Source: Bacillota bacterium (GTDB taxonomy: Bacteria > Bacillota > Sulfobacillia > RBS10-35 > JAJYVN01). From it: a DNA stretch of 64,000 nt. Position numbers and translations under genes: made by a program. Every line of letters starts with the position of its first letter. Positions within the stretch are counted from its first letter, which is position 1. Below, piece by piece: positions 38,245 through 44,095 of this stretch. Location: the NCBI GenBank assembly GCA_021806565.1, contig JAJZXK010000003.1, positions 18,512 to 82,511 of the forward strand, read 5' to 3'. The notes below the pieces were generated by a model. It saw nothing but the letters and a program-made list of their open reading frames with translations. It was not told where the DNA came from and did no database searches.

Positions 38245-38274
38245 TTGACAACCGCCTGGAATGCGCGCTAGCAT
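38245..38274 (+). promoter_or_regulatory. SigA-type promoter of the cysC operon
   Basis: TTGACA (38245-38250) and TAGCAT (38269-38274) are separated by 18 bp. The -35 box is a perfect consensus match and the -10 is TATAAT-like at four of six. A dyad operator begins 12 bp downstream, over the expected start site, and the cysC ATG is at 38331. Confidence 0.7.
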
Positions 38275-38285
38275 CCAGGCACGGT

Positions 38286-38317
38286 AATACACTAATTCCG
38301 ATCGGGAACAGTGCATT
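38286..38317. promoter_or_regulatory. Dyad operator candidate for the cysC operon
   Basis: The 32-bp element reads AATACACTAATTCC-GATC and GGGAACAGTGCATT: arms AAT-CACT-..TTCC and GGGAA-AGTG-ATT match at about 12 of 15 positions with one gap. It lies at the likely +1 region, where a repressor would block initiation. The core TTCC-n4-GGAA resembles sites of Rrf2-type regulators such as CymR, but the regulator is not in the window. Confidence 0.55.
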
Positions 38318-38330
38318 AGGGGGAAGCTGG

Positions 38331-38921
38331 ATGGCCACCACCACGCGCGCCGACCGCCTGGAGCAGGGCTTCACCGTTTGGTTCACGGGGCTTTCGGGTG
38401 CAGGCAAGTCCACGCTCAGCAAGGCGCTGGCCGCCGAGTTGCTGCGCAGGGGACGCCGAGTCGAGGTGCTGGACGGTGACGAAGTGCGCACCAACCTCAG
38501 CCGGGGCTTGGGCTTTTCGCGCGAGGACCGCGACGAAAACGTCCAGCGCATCGCCTACGTCTGCCAACTGCTGACGCGCCACGGTGTGGCCGTGCTGTCG
38601 GCGGCCATCTCCCCCTACCAGGAGGCACGGGCACAGGCGCGCGCGCGCATCGGCGCGTTCGTGGAGGTCTACGTGCAGTGCCCGATCCCGGAGTTGGTGC
38701 GGCGCGACGTCAAGGGCCTCTATGCGCGCGCCCTGCGGGGTGAGATCCAGCACTTCACCGGCATCAGCGACCCGTACGAACCACCGGCGCACCCCGACGT
38801 CGTCGTCGACAGCGGCAGCGAAAGCGTGGGCGCCTCGTTGGAGCGCATCGTCCGCCACCTCGAACTGCGCGGCTACATCCCGGTGGCCATGGCCGAACCC
38901 GGCGCGGCCGACGCCGACTAG
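38331..38921 (+). CDS. cysC: Adenylyl-sulfate kinase
   Basis: 196 residues from ATG 38331, with an AGGGGGAAG site. The P-loop is VWFTGLSGAGKSTLSKAL, followed by VEVLDGDEVRTNLSRGLGFS, EDRDENVQRIAYVCQLLTRH and AISPYQEARAQAR, the complete APS kinase signature. It phosphorylates APS to PAPS with ATP. No sulfate adenylyltransferase gene is present here. Sulfite reductase and cysH follow in the same direction at spacings of 32 and 29 nt, giving an operon. Confidence 0.95.
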   Translation: MATTTRADRLEQGFTVWFTGLSGAGKSTLSKALAAELLRRGRRVEVLDGDEVRTNLSRGLGFSREDRDENVQRIAYVCQLLTRHGVAVLSAAISPYQEARAQARARIGAFVEVYVQCPIPELVRRDVKGLYARALRGEIQHFTGISDPYEPPAHPDVVVDSGSESVGASLERIVRHLELRGYIPVAMAEPGAADAD

Positions 38922-38953: not shown

Positions 38954-40585
38954 ATGGATATCCCCGCCGGGGCGGCTCGCCCCCAGGCGCCGGCCCCGAC
39001 GATGGCCGACGTGCTCAAACGCAACGCGATCGAGCGGCTAAAGCAGGAGTTGCACCCATTGGAGATCCGCCATCAGCTCGACCGGCTGATCACCGCCGGC
39101 TACGAAGCGGTGGCGGAAGAGGACATCGTCCGCCTGCAATGGTACGGACTGTACCATGACAAGCCGAAGGTCGGGACGTTCATGCTGCGCGTCAAGCTCC
39201 CCGCCGGGGAGGTCACACCCGACCAACTGCGGACGATCGCCCGCATCAGCCGGCGCTACGGTCGCGAGGAGGCCGAACTGACGACGCGCCAGAATGTGCA
39301 ACTGCACTGGCTGACACTGCCCGACCTTCCCGATGTCTTCGACGCGTTGGAACGGGTCGGCCTGTCGATGGCGGGCGGGTGCGGCGACACGGTGCGCAAC
39401 ATCACCGGTTGCCCGCTATCGGGCCTCGACTCCGAGGAACTGTTCGACGCGCGTCCCTTTGTCGCGGCGGCGGCGCGCTTTTTCTACGGCAACCGCGAGT
39501 ACAGCAACCTGCCGCGCAAGCACAAGATCACGATCTCCGCCTGCCCGCACCAGTGCAACGCGCCGGAAATCAACTGCATCGCGCTGGTCGGGACGAAAGA
39601 CGCGGCAGGGCGCAACGGCTTCGCGATCCGGCTCGGCGGCGGCCTGTCGACCGCACCGCGCATCAGCCGTGACATCGGGGTGTTCGTGCCCGCGGACCAG
39701 GACGAGGTGATCGCGGTACTGCGCGCCGTGATCGACGTCTGGTCCTCCGATATGAAGTACCGCATGAGCCGCGCGAAGGCACGCCTCAAATTCGCCGTCG
39801 ACGACATGGGAGCGGAAGGCTACCGGCAGCGGGTGGAAGCCAGACTCGGGCGTCCCCTGGCCGAAGGGGTCGCGCCGCTGCCTCCACCGGGACCCCACCT
39901 CCACCTTGGCGTCATGGCCCAAAAGGACCCACAGCGGCGCGCCGTCGGCTTCCCGGTGTTCCTCGGCATCTGCCGCGGTCCCCAACTGGAGGCGATCGCC
40001 GACCTGGCATCGGAGTACGGCTCCGGCATCCGCCTGACCCGCCAGCAGAACCTGATCCTGACCGATCTGGCGGCGGACTCGGTGGACACGGTGATCGCCC
40101 GTATGGCGGAGATCGGCTTCCGCCTCGACGTCAACGGACTGCGCGGCTCGGCGATCGGATGCACCGGCAGCCCGCTTTGCAACTACGCCGTCGGCGAGAC
40201 CAAGGCCAAGCTCGCCACCATCGTCGCGCACCTCGAGCAGCGGTTCGGGAACGCGGTCTCGGCCCTACGCCTCAACCTGGACGGCTGCCCGCACGCCTGC
40301 GCGCAGCACTTCATCGGCGACATCGGGTTACAGGGCACCAGCCTGCGCGGTTCCGACGGTGGCAAGATCGAGGCCTACGACATCTTCGTCCGCGGCGGAC
40401 AGGGCTCGGAGGCGGCCATCGGCCGGCCCCTGGTACGCAGGGTACCGACCGACGTGGTCACCGGCTGCGTCGAGCGACTGGTCGGCGCCTACCTTGAGGG
40501 CCACCGGGACGGCGAGAGCTACCGCGCGTTCTTTGAACGCACCGTGGACGCGGAGATCCTGGCCATCGCGGGAGCCGCGGGCTGA
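38954..40585 (+). CDS. Ferredoxin-type sulfite (nitrite/sulfite) reductase
   Basis: 543 residues from ATG 38954, GGGAGG 10 nt upstream. Two half-repeats each hold a ferredoxin-like and a sirohaem domain: ELTTRQNVQLHWLTLPDLPD, GGCGDTVRNITGCPLSGLDS and PHQCNAPEI in the first half. The second half has IRLTRQQNLILTDL, and the cluster cysteines are in GCTGSPLCNYAVGETK and LDGCPHACAQHF (Cx5C...Cx3C). The enzyme reduces sulfite to sulfide by six electrons; nitrite reduction is the alternative, but the neighbours cysC and cysH argue for sulfite. Confidence 0.93.
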   Translation: MDIPAGAARPQAPAPTMADVLKRNAIERLKQELHPLEIRHQLDRLITAGYEAVAEEDIVRLQWYGLYHDKPKVGTFMLRVKLPAGEVTPDQLRTIARISRRYGREEAELTTRQNVQLHWLTLPDLPDVFDALERVGLSMAGGCGDTVRNITGCPLSGLDSEELFDARPFVAAAARFFYGNREYSNLPRKHKITISACPHQCNAPEINCIALVGTKDAAGRNGFAIRLGGGLSTAPRISRDIGVFVPADQDEVIAVLRAVIDVWSSDMKYRMSRAKARLKFAVDDMGAEGYRQRVEARLGRPLAEGVAPLPPPGPHLHLGVMAQKDPQRRAVGFPVFLGICRGPQLEAIADLASEYGSGIRLTRQQNLILTDLAADSVDTVIARMAEIGFRLDVNGLRGSAIGCTGSPLCNYAVGETKAKLATIVAHLEQRFGNAVSALRLNLDGCPHACAQHFIGDIGLQGTSLRGSDGGKIEAYDIFVRGGQGSEAAIGRPLVRRVPTDVVTGCVERLVGAYLEGHRDGESYRAFFERTVDAEILAIAGAAG

Positions 40586-40614: not shown

Positions 40615-41445
40615 ATGGCGGAGACCGCCGAGCAGCGGGTACTGCTCGATGATTATGAAGTGGGCGAGCTCGCCGTCGAGTTCGACGACCGGCCGGCCGA
40701 GGAGATCGTGGCATGGGCCATCGAGCGTTTCGGCCACCGGCTCGCGATCTGCAGCTCGCTGCAGGCCGAGAGCGTCGTGCTCTTGGATATGGCGTGGCGG
40801 ATTGACCCGCAGGTACGCGTCTTCACCGTCGACACCGGGCGCATGCCCCAGGAGACCCACGTGCTGATCGACCGCATCCGCGACCGCTACGGGGTGCAGA
40901 TCGAGGTGGTCCACCCGGACGCCGAGGAACTGTCCCGCATGACGACGCGGTATGGCAGCAACCTCTTCTACGAGAGCGTGGCCAAGCGGCTCCTGTGCTG
41001 CGAGGTGCGCAAGGTCGAGCCGCTCAAGCGCAAGCTGGCCGAGTTGGACGCCTGGGTGACCGGCCTGCGGCGTGAGCACTGGCCGACGCGCAGCAACATC
41101 CGCAAGATCGACATCGACCACGACCACGACGGCATCGTGAAGCTCAACCCGTTGGCCGACTGGATCCACGACGATGTCTGGACCTACATCCGCGACCACG
41201 ACGTCCCGTCGCACGACCTCTACGCCCAGGGCTACACCAGCATCTCCTGCACCTGCTGCACGCGCCCCACGAAACCTGGCGAAGACCCGCGCGCCGGACG
41301 CTGGTGGTGGGAAAAGGGCGCACCCAAGGAGTGCGGTATGCACTGCTCCCTGGAAACCGGCGGTTTCGAACACGAGTTGGACGCCCTGCTCGATGACGTC
41401 CTGCGCGGCAAGGCCCCGGAGACGGCGAAGGCGGGTTCGGACTGA
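40615..41445 (+). CDS. cysH: Phosphoadenylyl/adenylyl-sulfate reductase, [4Fe-4S] type
   Basis: 276 residues from ATG 40615. Nucleotide-binding start AICSSLQAESVVLLDMAWRI and VFTVDTGRMPQETH are typical of CysH. The cluster motif is present in two parts, RLLCCEVRKVEPLKR and SISCTCCTRPTKPGED, and the redox Cys is in KECGMHCSLE. Enzymes with the CC...CxxC motif use APS, or both APS and PAPS. Together with CysC this leaves both routes to sulfite possible. It ends the operon; an IS607 left-end relic follows about 100 nt later. Confidence 0.93.
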   Translation: MAETAEQRVLLDDYEVGELAVEFDDRPAEEIVAWAIERFGHRLAICSSLQAESVVLLDMAWRIDPQVRVFTVDTGRMPQETHVLIDRIRDRYGVQIEVVHPDAEELSRMTTRYGSNLFYESVAKRLLCCEVRKVEPLKRKLAELDAWVTGLRREHWPTRSNIRKIDIDHDHDGIVKLNPLADWIHDDVWTYIRDHDVPSHDLYAQGYTSISCTCCTRPTKPGEDPRAGRWWWEKGAPKECGMHCSLETGGFEHELDALLDDVLRGKAPETAKAGSD

Positions 41446-41889: not shown

Positions 41890-43341
41890 ATGCGGACCCG
41901 GCGGGACGTGCTGAAATGGGCCGCGTGTGCGTTCGCGCCGGCCGTCTTGGCGGGTTGCGGGCCCTTTGCGACAACCGCCATGAGAGGGCGGCTGCGGATC
42001 GGGATCGTCGGCCTACCGGGCCACATCGCCGACGGCCTCGCCAAGGCGCTCACAGCCTGTTTTCAAGCGTTCGCCCGCCAAGACCGCGTCGCGACTCGGC
42101 TTGAAGTCTCCGCTTACGCCATGCCCCCGCTGCAGTGGTATCGGTGCCGTCCTGGGGGCCCGTGCGGACCGGCCACGACCCGACATGGATCCGGCCTCTT
42201 CCACGTGGGCCCATCCGCCAAGGACCCTCAACTATCGGGGAGCCGCGGCGGCCTGTTCGTGCGCGGCCGCACCGCACTGGGGCTGGTGTACGGGGAATCG
42301 CCTCCACCGGCCGTGGCCGCGAGTGTGGACGCCCTACGGGTGGCGGGCCCCGACATCATCATCGCCTACTCCACCTGGTCCTATTGGATCACGCCCATCG
42401 CGACCCCCTTGATCGATATGCAAAAGACGTATGCCGAGCATCTTTCCGGGGTGGCGCCGTCCGTGATCGAACACGGGATGTTGCTCTCTCCACAGGAGGG
42501 GTTGCAGCCGTACGGCGCCCCGCTGCTCCGCGATCCCCTGGCACTGTTCGTCCCGCCCGCGCTGGACGGGCTGAACCCGCACCAGGCGCCCTGGACCTGG
42601 GATGGTCTCGCGCGCTTGCTCAAACGCGCGAACCCGCCCGTCGGCGGAGGCGGCTTTCTGGCCACGGCCTCCTATCCAGAAGGCGCGGAAAGTGCCCTAT
42701 CCATCCTGCTCGCGCAGGGCGGATCACTCGGCAGGGTCGCGCGCGGCCGCGTCATCCCCACCGGCGATACGGCCGCCGCGCGGGATGCCCTTCGCCTCTG
42801 GGGGCGGCTGGTCCACTCCGGAAAACCCACCTGGGTACCGGAGGGCGCCCCGGCCAACGGGACCACGCTTGCCGCGATGGTGTCGGTCACTGCGCAGCAT
42901 CTGTGGTCTCCGCTCTGGCTGGATCGGTTTCAGTGGAACCCGACCTGGCCGTGTTGGCCGCTTCCCGCCGGACCCAGGGGACCATTGGTGCCGTGCACCT
43001 ACCTGACCGCGTTCATCAACGCCGGCAACGCAAGCGGCTCGCTGGCGCAGGATTTCGTGGCGTTTCTGTGGGGGAGCAGGGCCCAGGTCCTGCTCCTTGC
43101 CGCGGGCGTCGGCCTGCCGCTGCGCCCGCAGCCGGGCGGCAGGATGTCTCTGCTCACCCGGCTCTATCCGTGGATCGGGGATCCATCCGCCTTCGGCAAC
43201 GCGGACGCCGACATCCGGATCAGCCAATTGTTCCACGGCGTGGGCGGGATACGGGACGCCGCTCCCCTCTACGGCGTGGTGGATGCGTTCCAACGCAAAC
43301 TGCTGCGGATCCAGCAACCGACCGCACCCGCCACGGCCTGA
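41890..43341 (+). CDS. ABC-type solute-binding lipoprotein (orphan)
   Basis: 483 residues from ATG 41890, GGGAGG upstream. The N-terminus MRTRRDVLKWAACAFAP AVLAGCG has a twin-arginine-like RRDVLK and an LAGC lipobox, so the mature protein should be lipid-anchored outside. The body has the features of sugar-type extracellular binding proteins: WTWDGLARLLKRA, an AYSTWSYWITPIATPL segment and YLTAFINAGNASGSLAQDFV near the C-terminus. No permease or ATPase gene is nearby. Assignment to a subfamily is not possible. Confidence 0.65.
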   Translation: MRTRRDVLKWAACAFAPAVLAGCGPFATTAMRGRLRIGIVGLPGHIADGLAKALTACFQAFARQDRVATRLEVSAYAMPPLQWYRCRPGGPCGPATTRHGSGLFHVGPSAKDPQLSGSRGGLFVRGRTALGLVYGESPPPAVAASVDALRVAGPDIIIAYSTWSYWITPIATPLIDMQKTYAEHLSGVAPSVIEHGMLLSPQEGLQPYGAPLLRDPLALFVPPALDGLNPHQAPWTWDGLARLLKRANPPVGGGGFLATASYPEGAESALSILLAQGGSLGRVARGRVIPTGDTAAARDALRLWGRLVHSGKPTWVPEGAPANGTTLAAMVSVTAQHLWSPLWLDRFQWNPTWPCWPLPAGPRGPLVPCTYLTAFINAGNASGSLAQDFVAFLWGSRAQVLLLAAGVGLPLRPQPGGRMSLLTRLYPWIGDPSAFGNADADIRISQLFHGVGGIRDAAPLYGVVDAFQRKLLRIQQPTAPATA

Positions 43342-43636
43342 GGCGTCCCACGGGCACGCGCCGGCCGCCACGCCGGCGTCCTCTACGGGCGGCGATCGCA
43401 GGAGACGCCGGCGGGCGGTAAGAACACCTTCCGCGTGATCCGAGCCCCACAGACGCCGTCACGATGGCGGACGGCCGGACCAGACCACGGACGGCGCCCC
43501 CCCACCACAGCGGCCCGTGGAGCGCTCCGCGGGTGTGGAGAACCCCTCGCGCAGATCCCGGGGTATCGGCGCGGCGGCCCGCGATGCGGCGGCGCCCGGA
43601 CCCGACAGGCGAGATTGCACTCTGGAGGCGTCCACG

Positions 43637-44095
43637 ATGGACAGGTTGACCCTCGATCAGGCGGCCCGCGACGTTCTGGAACCCGAACTCACCGCCCTCC
43701 TGGCCGAAGTCGGTCCGGAAGCACGGGGACGCTGGCAGGCCGTGTTCGACGAAGTGGCGGCGGGCGGGGTCTCCGGCGATCAACTGGAGGCTCTGGAGCA
43801 ACTCCTGGCCATGGGCATCGAAACCGGGCGCTTCGAGCGGACGCAGGGGCGCGCCGCGGACACGCTCGCCCGGGGGCTTTATGCGCGCACGCCGGGCGGG
43901 CAGGCACGCGCGCAACAGGCGGACGCGGTCAACTCCGCCCTGAAAGCGTTGGCGGGCAACGTGCTCGAGTCGGTGCGCTTCACGCCGGACGGCCCCACTG
44001 GCTGCCGCGTCACCCTGGAAACCGGCCGGGGTGAGATCTCCCTGCGCATCGACCGCCAGGGCATCCGCCTGGACAGCGTCGGGGTCGGCGGCTGA
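43637..44095 (+). CDS. Hypothetical protein, 152 residues
   Basis: ATG 43637 is preceded by GGAGG 9 nt upstream. Residues 1-110 are helical and acidic (ELTALLAEVGPEARGRWQAV, QLEALEQLLAMGIETGRFER), and the C-terminus is strand-like (VTLETGRGEISLRIDRQGIR). No signal peptide or TM is present. I do not recognise the family. It is convergent with the PhyH-like gene at a distance of 31 nt. Confidence 0.65.
   Translation: MDRLTLDQAARDVLEPELTALLAEVGPEARGRWQAVFDEVAAGGVSGDQLEALEQLLAMGIETGRFERTQGRAADTLARGLYARTPGGQARAQQADAVNSALKALAGNVLESVRFTPDGPTGCRVTLETGRGEISLRIDRQGIRLDSVGVGG

Follow-up and report, generated by a model that had tools for sequence, protein, structure and literature searches.

The closest described systems are of the CymR type. 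CymR binds together with CysK in the presence of cysteine (PMC3828012, PMC9338935), and in a model a tyrosine in the CymR tail contacts CysK (PMC11487621). For Clostridium acetobutylicum, PMC3828012 predicts a CymR regulon over the sulfate-assimilation operon (cysC, cysD and cysN) and cysK, the sites being predicted using a Staphylococcaceae matrix. For C. perfringens, PMC2940859 describes a CymR-like Rrf2-iscS operon that is induced on cysteine limitation. Here we analyzed a 64-kb stretch of DNA (the window; 71% GC) from a Bacillota draft assembly of 4.0 Mb in 213 contigs (the host genome, G000), in which a promoter and a 32-bp dyad precede the genes cysC, sir and cysH. With fairly high confidence, the sequence comparisons point to this dyad being a doubled operator of the host's single clear CymR-like Rrf2 repressor, which would control cysC-sir-cysH. 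The genomes analyzed are draft-quality MAGs, with a contamination of 7% given for G002, and genome-wide statements refer to pattern and model searches. Judged by the cysC-sir-cysH operon, the closest named relatives are two Bacillota MAGs. The features of the locus are as follows.

38245..38250, + strand: -35 hexamer TTGACA of the cysC-sir-cysH promoter; TTGAC(A/T) is at the same place 5' of cysC in loci L008 and L009
38269..38274, + strand: -10 hexamer TAGCAT, from a promoter search; both relatives have TACCAT with a 17-bp spacer
38286..38317, no strand: predicted 32-bp dyad operator, AATACACTAATTCCGATCGGGAACAGTGCATT; highest-ranking site of the window when scored with a matrix from other operons and genomes
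38286..38309, no strand: sub-site A, AATACA-N12-GGGAAC, 24 bp, Rrf2/CymR-like; 15.5 bits with a held-out 24-mer matrix, a score that two window positions reach
38294..38317, no strand: sub-site B, AATTCC-N12-TGCATT, 24 bp, offset by 8 bp from sub-site A; 16.3 bits held-out, the best in the window
38318..38324, + strand: ribosome binding site AGGGGGA of cysC, from sequence reading; directly adjoins the operator
38331..38921, + strand: cysC, adenylylsulfate kinase (PF01583, E 1.1e-59; NF002059 above cut-off)
38954..40585, + strand: sir, siroheme/4Fe-4S sulfite (or nitrite) reductase, NirA/Sir superfamily (PF01077, PF03460)
40615..41445, + strand: cysH, thioredoxin-dependent APS/PAPS reductase (PF01507; TIGR02055, 250.7 bits, cut-off 235.3)

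The three genes are co-directional, with intergenic gaps of 32 and 29 bases, and each is supported by Pfam; the top NCBIfam matches of Sir were all under their own cut-offs. CysH (40615-41445) scored above the APS reductase cut-off but not above the specific PAPS reductase model TIGR02057, despite the presence of an APS kinase gene in the operon (38331-38921). PAPS may therefore have another purpose, or CysH may accept both APS and PAPS. Further downstream, a solute-binding protein gene (41890-43341) separates cysH from a gene (43517-44095, + strand) encoding a protein without NCBIfam match, which is found 3' of sir-cysH in Chloroflexota, Gemmatimonadota/Latescibacterota, Acidobacteriota and other loci.

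In agreement with the original prediction, a promoter TTGACA-18-TAGCAT (38245-38274) is followed by the 32-bp dyad (38286-38317). The promoter has 10 of the 12 consensus bases and is the sole promoter-like site within 600 bp, shuffled sequences giving 0.0. The dyad, AATACACTAATTCC-GATC-GGGAACAGTGCATT, contains 12 of 16 symmetric pairs and is flanked by the -10 hexamer, 11 bases before it, and by the ribosome binding site. Conservation among the copies falls on the outer arm AATACC and the inner arm WATTCC; the CACT/AGTG arms of the original prediction are partly peculiar to the copy in the window. Symmetry alone was dropped as evidence, as 20 centres in the window equal or beat the dyad; we estimate the chance of such symmetry beside one promoter at about 1% for some 40 centres. 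That the dyad is more than chance is indicated by the recurrence and conservation of the element.

The 32-bp element was found just 3' of, or abutting, the -10 hexamer of cysC-sir-cysH (three genomes), cysH2-sat (four genomes) and cysK (four genomes), all within one family. The cysC promoter is kept in G002 (JAJZZC010000002, L008) as TTGACT-17-TACCAT with a like element after 11 bases, and in G005 (JAJZMB010000020, L009) as TTGACA-17-TACCAT with a like element after 10 bases; L008 and L009 are apparently the same contigs as the G002 and G005 loci and were counted once. The same arrangement precedes both cysH2-sat and cysK in G000, G002, G004 and G005. The eleven sites align gap-free and give the half-site consensus AATACCNNWATTCC. 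At two cysK genes outside the training set (G001 and G003), the element was the best 32-mer of the locus and lay beside the -10 hexamer (19.4 and 12.7 bits, respectively); eight other loci of pyridoxal-phosphate enzymes in these genomes scored at most 12.1 bits, at positions that were not promoter-proximal. Hence the search for the same dyad at other sulfur genes, which the original prediction had proposed, found it at cysH2-sat and cysK of the host genome, and the element is present 5' of the same operons in close relatives; the dyad is neither unique in its genome nor absent from close relatives, the two outcomes that had been named as telling against it. On this comparative evidence, the 32-bp element is a real, conserved control site common to three cysteine-making operons. 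Its position, past the -10 hexamer and ahead of the start codon, is likewise conserved and fits repression. No strong additional site was detected among the PF01053 loci scanned except beside cysK, and the sulfate permease PF00916, considered as a further target, was absent from the four genomes checked.

Two other observations concern these operons. In each genome (L163, L161, L162 and L168) the gene after cysK encodes another pyridoxal-phosphate enzyme (cysteine desulfurase type), so that the cysK operon may also supply Fe-S assembly. The cysH2-sat leaders of four genera share a near-invariant ACATAGC(G/C)TGG between operator and gene (L150:1493-1503, L151:4169-4179, L152 and L153), which is out of frame relative to cysH2, lacks a nearby in-frame start codon on its 5' side in G000, and matches nothing in Rfam.

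The specificity of the element was assessed in several ways. A held-out matrix, built only from six cysH2 and cysK sites of other genomes, ranked position 38286 first among the 64,000 positions of the window, with 27.9 bits versus 13.8 bits for the next one. When orthologous groups were held out in turn, the site ranked first in 10/10 other loci, three cysK sites being weaker (10.3, 13.9 and 16.0 bits). A strict consensus pattern allowing up to three mismatches, which measures specificity and not discovery because it was designed on known sites, matched the host genome (4.0 Mb) only twice, at the cysC dyad and at the cysH2-sat promoter. Over six family genomes the same pattern gave four matches, all at sulfur promoters (besides those of the host, only cysH2-sat in G002 and only cysK in G005, and none in the other three), and its reversed control gave 0. 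A structure-free covariance model returned only sulfur sites, weakly so in the 71% GC genome (E 0.16-1.3). Elsewhere in the class, matches to the strict pattern occurred at chance level, and from this the 32-bp element seems to be confined to the host family. Whole-genome searches with a degenerate palindrome or with the outer arms as the pattern were dropped because they gave too many chance matches.

The sir loci of other phyla, scanned with the same matrix, gave mostly AT-rich noise and were set aside. Other elements were seen there. Latescibacterota-type sir operons (L010-L016, L043 and L025) carry a conserved element with TTGATCAA (e.g. TTTACTAAATTGATCAAGATTGTNATTTTT) about 130-170 bases 5' of sir and directly upstream of a TTGACA -35 box; this element looks like an activator site. 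Two Rokubacteria sir loci, L055 (-126) and L061 (-332 from sir), both contain TTGACATT(A/G)CCGATCGG(A/G)ATAG, in which the CCGATCGG palindrome is located inside the promoter spacer and has the same core as the dyad in the window.

The inner and outer half-sites of the 32-bp element lie 8 bp apart. Along its length, 24-mer scores peaked at offsets 0 and 8 and were low between them in nearly all copies; in the cysC copy of G002 sub-site B is weak (3.3 bits). Sub-sites A and B form the sole offset-8 pair in the 64 kb in which both members score above 8.5 bits. Judged by these profiles, the 32-bp dyad is probably a pair of overlapping sites and not a single long palindrome.

When a 24-mer matrix trained on the cys dyads only was applied to ten rrf2 loci from the class, each 3.4 kb long, its best match was located in the rrf2 promoter in 10/10, in most of them just 3' of the -10 hexamer. 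Column-permuted matrices achieved this in a mean of 1.6 loci (maximum 8), and 0/1000 reached 10/10. The cys dyads thus appear to be built from the unit that precedes rrf2. When different spacings were compared at the rrf2 loci, CC-N12-GG was best and N13 second. The presumed link to an Rrf2/CymR-type site gained from these results and also from the cysK CymR site of B. subtilis (one published site, PMC11487621), which agrees with the half-sites (p 0.001-0.0035 versus shuffled sequences), at a spacing of N13-14 versus N12. The rrf2 site is single in five family genomes, of which only G005 shows a further, weak match at offset 8; because of this single operator copy, repression by the regulator probably extends to its own operon, and for the same reason the doubled form at the cys genes can be read in other ways. 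In G012 and G009 (L192 and L193) the rrf2 promoters contain two non-overlapping matches, across the promoter spacer and 3' of the -10 hexamer, pointing to a further kind of doubled arrangement in that family. In the host genome, a 6S RNA (RF00013, 81.8 bits) is encoded at L156:2549-2732 (+ strand), roughly 4 kb 5' of rrf2.

The candidate regulator gene (G000:C3:16463) is the first gene of rrf2-nifS-mnmA, a synteny found in G000 and G005. One clear CymR/IscR-like Rrf2 gene is present in every family genome but G001, which is incomplete; G005 encodes an additional Rrf2 protein. The host protein belongs to the Rrf2 family (PF02082, 139.2 bits versus a cut-off of 30). Its best NCBIfam family is CymR (NF047409), with a score of 161 bits that is below the cut-off of 195, and we therefore call it CymR-like and not CymR. 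Its nearest relative in the PDB is 4cic, matched full-length at 162.8 bits, and B. subtilis CymR (2y75) is another; the recognition region SEHYLEQL.APLRKAGLV.SVRGA.GGY is shared. The C-terminus of the host protein is MYYI, so that the YI tail is kept. With the exception of G033 (MYHI), the fully aligned CymR-like orthologs have the tail M(Y/F)YI, and the G003 ortholog ends in VYYI.

The same protein features bear on an alternative that concerns the signal and not the operator, namely that Rrf2 binds the dyad but acts mainly as an IscR-like Fe-S sensor, Fe-S status and not cysteine controlling the enzymes. A cluster of four cysteines, C-x9-CC-x5-C, is conserved in family and order (it is absent in the G034 and G053 orthologs), rrf2 heads nifS-mnmA, Sir and CysH are Fe-S enzymes, and 4cic, the PDB entry closest to the host protein, belongs to the BadM/Rrf2 family. 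However, the host protein scored 115.7 with the NCBIfam IscR model TIGR02010, under its cut-off of 207.55 and weaker than with CymR; in addition, the C-terminal YI tail of the CysK type is kept and the regulon found is that of cysteine synthesis. We consider it unlikely that Fe-S status is the main signal; an Fe-S input to the regulator is possible.

It is improbable that a different sulfur regulator, for instance of the LysR, TetR or CsoR type, binds the dyad and also controls rrf2-nifS-mnmA, Rrf2 then being a target. Nested dyads of 32 bp with two-dimer binding occur in other families, and the spacing is 1-2 bp off that of the B. subtilis CymR site, both of which would suit such a regulator. 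Against it, the half-sites match the known CymR site, nearly all genomes searched encode a CymR-like protein, and the 24-bp unit occurs at rrf2 promoters across families, including those of class relatives without the cysC-sir-cysH operon, which fits autoregulation. Finally, an RNA hairpin at the mRNA 5' end, controlling stability or translation, or a riboswitch, was dropped as very improbable: although the dyad is part of the 5' leader, directly next to the ribosome binding site, and has 12/16 pairs in the copy in the window, there is no base-pair covariation over the eleven copies (pairing in 59.7% of cells versus a shuffled mean of 59.8%, and covariation equal to the shuffled mean), several copies have only 5-7/16 pairs, the element abuts or overlaps the -10 hexamer at cysK, and there is no Rfam match.

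As a doubled operator of the CymR-like Rrf2 repressor, the dyad would function as follows. Two 24-bp sites offset by 8 bp would provide four half-sites (AATACC, WATTCC and their complements) that together make up the 32-bp palindrome. Two Rrf2 dimers would occupy it and, given its location downstream of the -10 hexamer and ahead of the ribosome binding site, would mask the start of transcription and obstruct RNA polymerase. Double operators of this kind would also control cysH2-sat and cysK, and a single copy is present in the rrf2 promoter. By analogy with Bacillus CymR, the repressor would probably be on the DNA with CysK when cysteine is plentiful and would probably be released when O-acetylserine rises; this signal is proposed because CymR binds with CysK and the CysK-contacting tail is conserved here. 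The switch would thus most likely turn the cys genes off when cysteine is plentiful. More tentatively, it is possible that an operator doubled family-wide at sulfur promoters and single at rrf2 allows cooperative binding of dimers and a sharper switch, with the tail and the cysteines coupling cysteine and Fe-S status.

These results define a testable sulfur regulon (cysC-sir-cysH, cysH2-sat, cysK and rrf2-nifS-mnmA) for an uncultivated high-GC Bacillota family, and would extend CymR-type control well beyond Bacilli. In addition, an operator that is doubled at the targets and single at the autoregulatory promoter predicts differing repression strengths.

Compared with known systems, the host regulator resembles CymR of B. 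subtilis and Staphylococcus aureus in being an Rrf2 protein with the same helix-turn-helix region and a C-terminal YI tail, in the half-sites (AATACC/GGAAAT) and in its predicted targets, which are genes of cysteine synthesis including cysK. The rrf2-nifS-mnmA gene order is a further likeness, its Bacillus counterpart being cymR-yrvO-trmU. It differs from CymR in that the host half-sites are spaced by N12 instead of the N13-14 of B. subtilis, the operator is doubled with an 8-bp offset, it has four cysteines that B. subtilis CymR, as aligned, lacks, and the protein scores under the NCBIfam equivalog cut-off. The closest solved relative, the BadM/Rrf2 regulator 4cic, also ends in MYYI, whereas its deposited sequence, as aligned, is without the C-x9-CC-x5-C cluster of the host; 4cic is from Thermincola potens and is known as an Fe-S type regulator. 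With C. acetobutylicum the host shares predicted CymR-type control of sulfate assimilation and cysK, and the rrf2-iscS operon of C. perfringens is a further likeness; a doubled operator, as proposed for the host, is not described in the passages of PMC3828012 and PMC2940859 considered here. In kind, then, this is an ordinary CymR-like sulfur regulon; its form is unusual, with a doubled operator, N12 spacing and a regulator that has both the tail and the cysteines.
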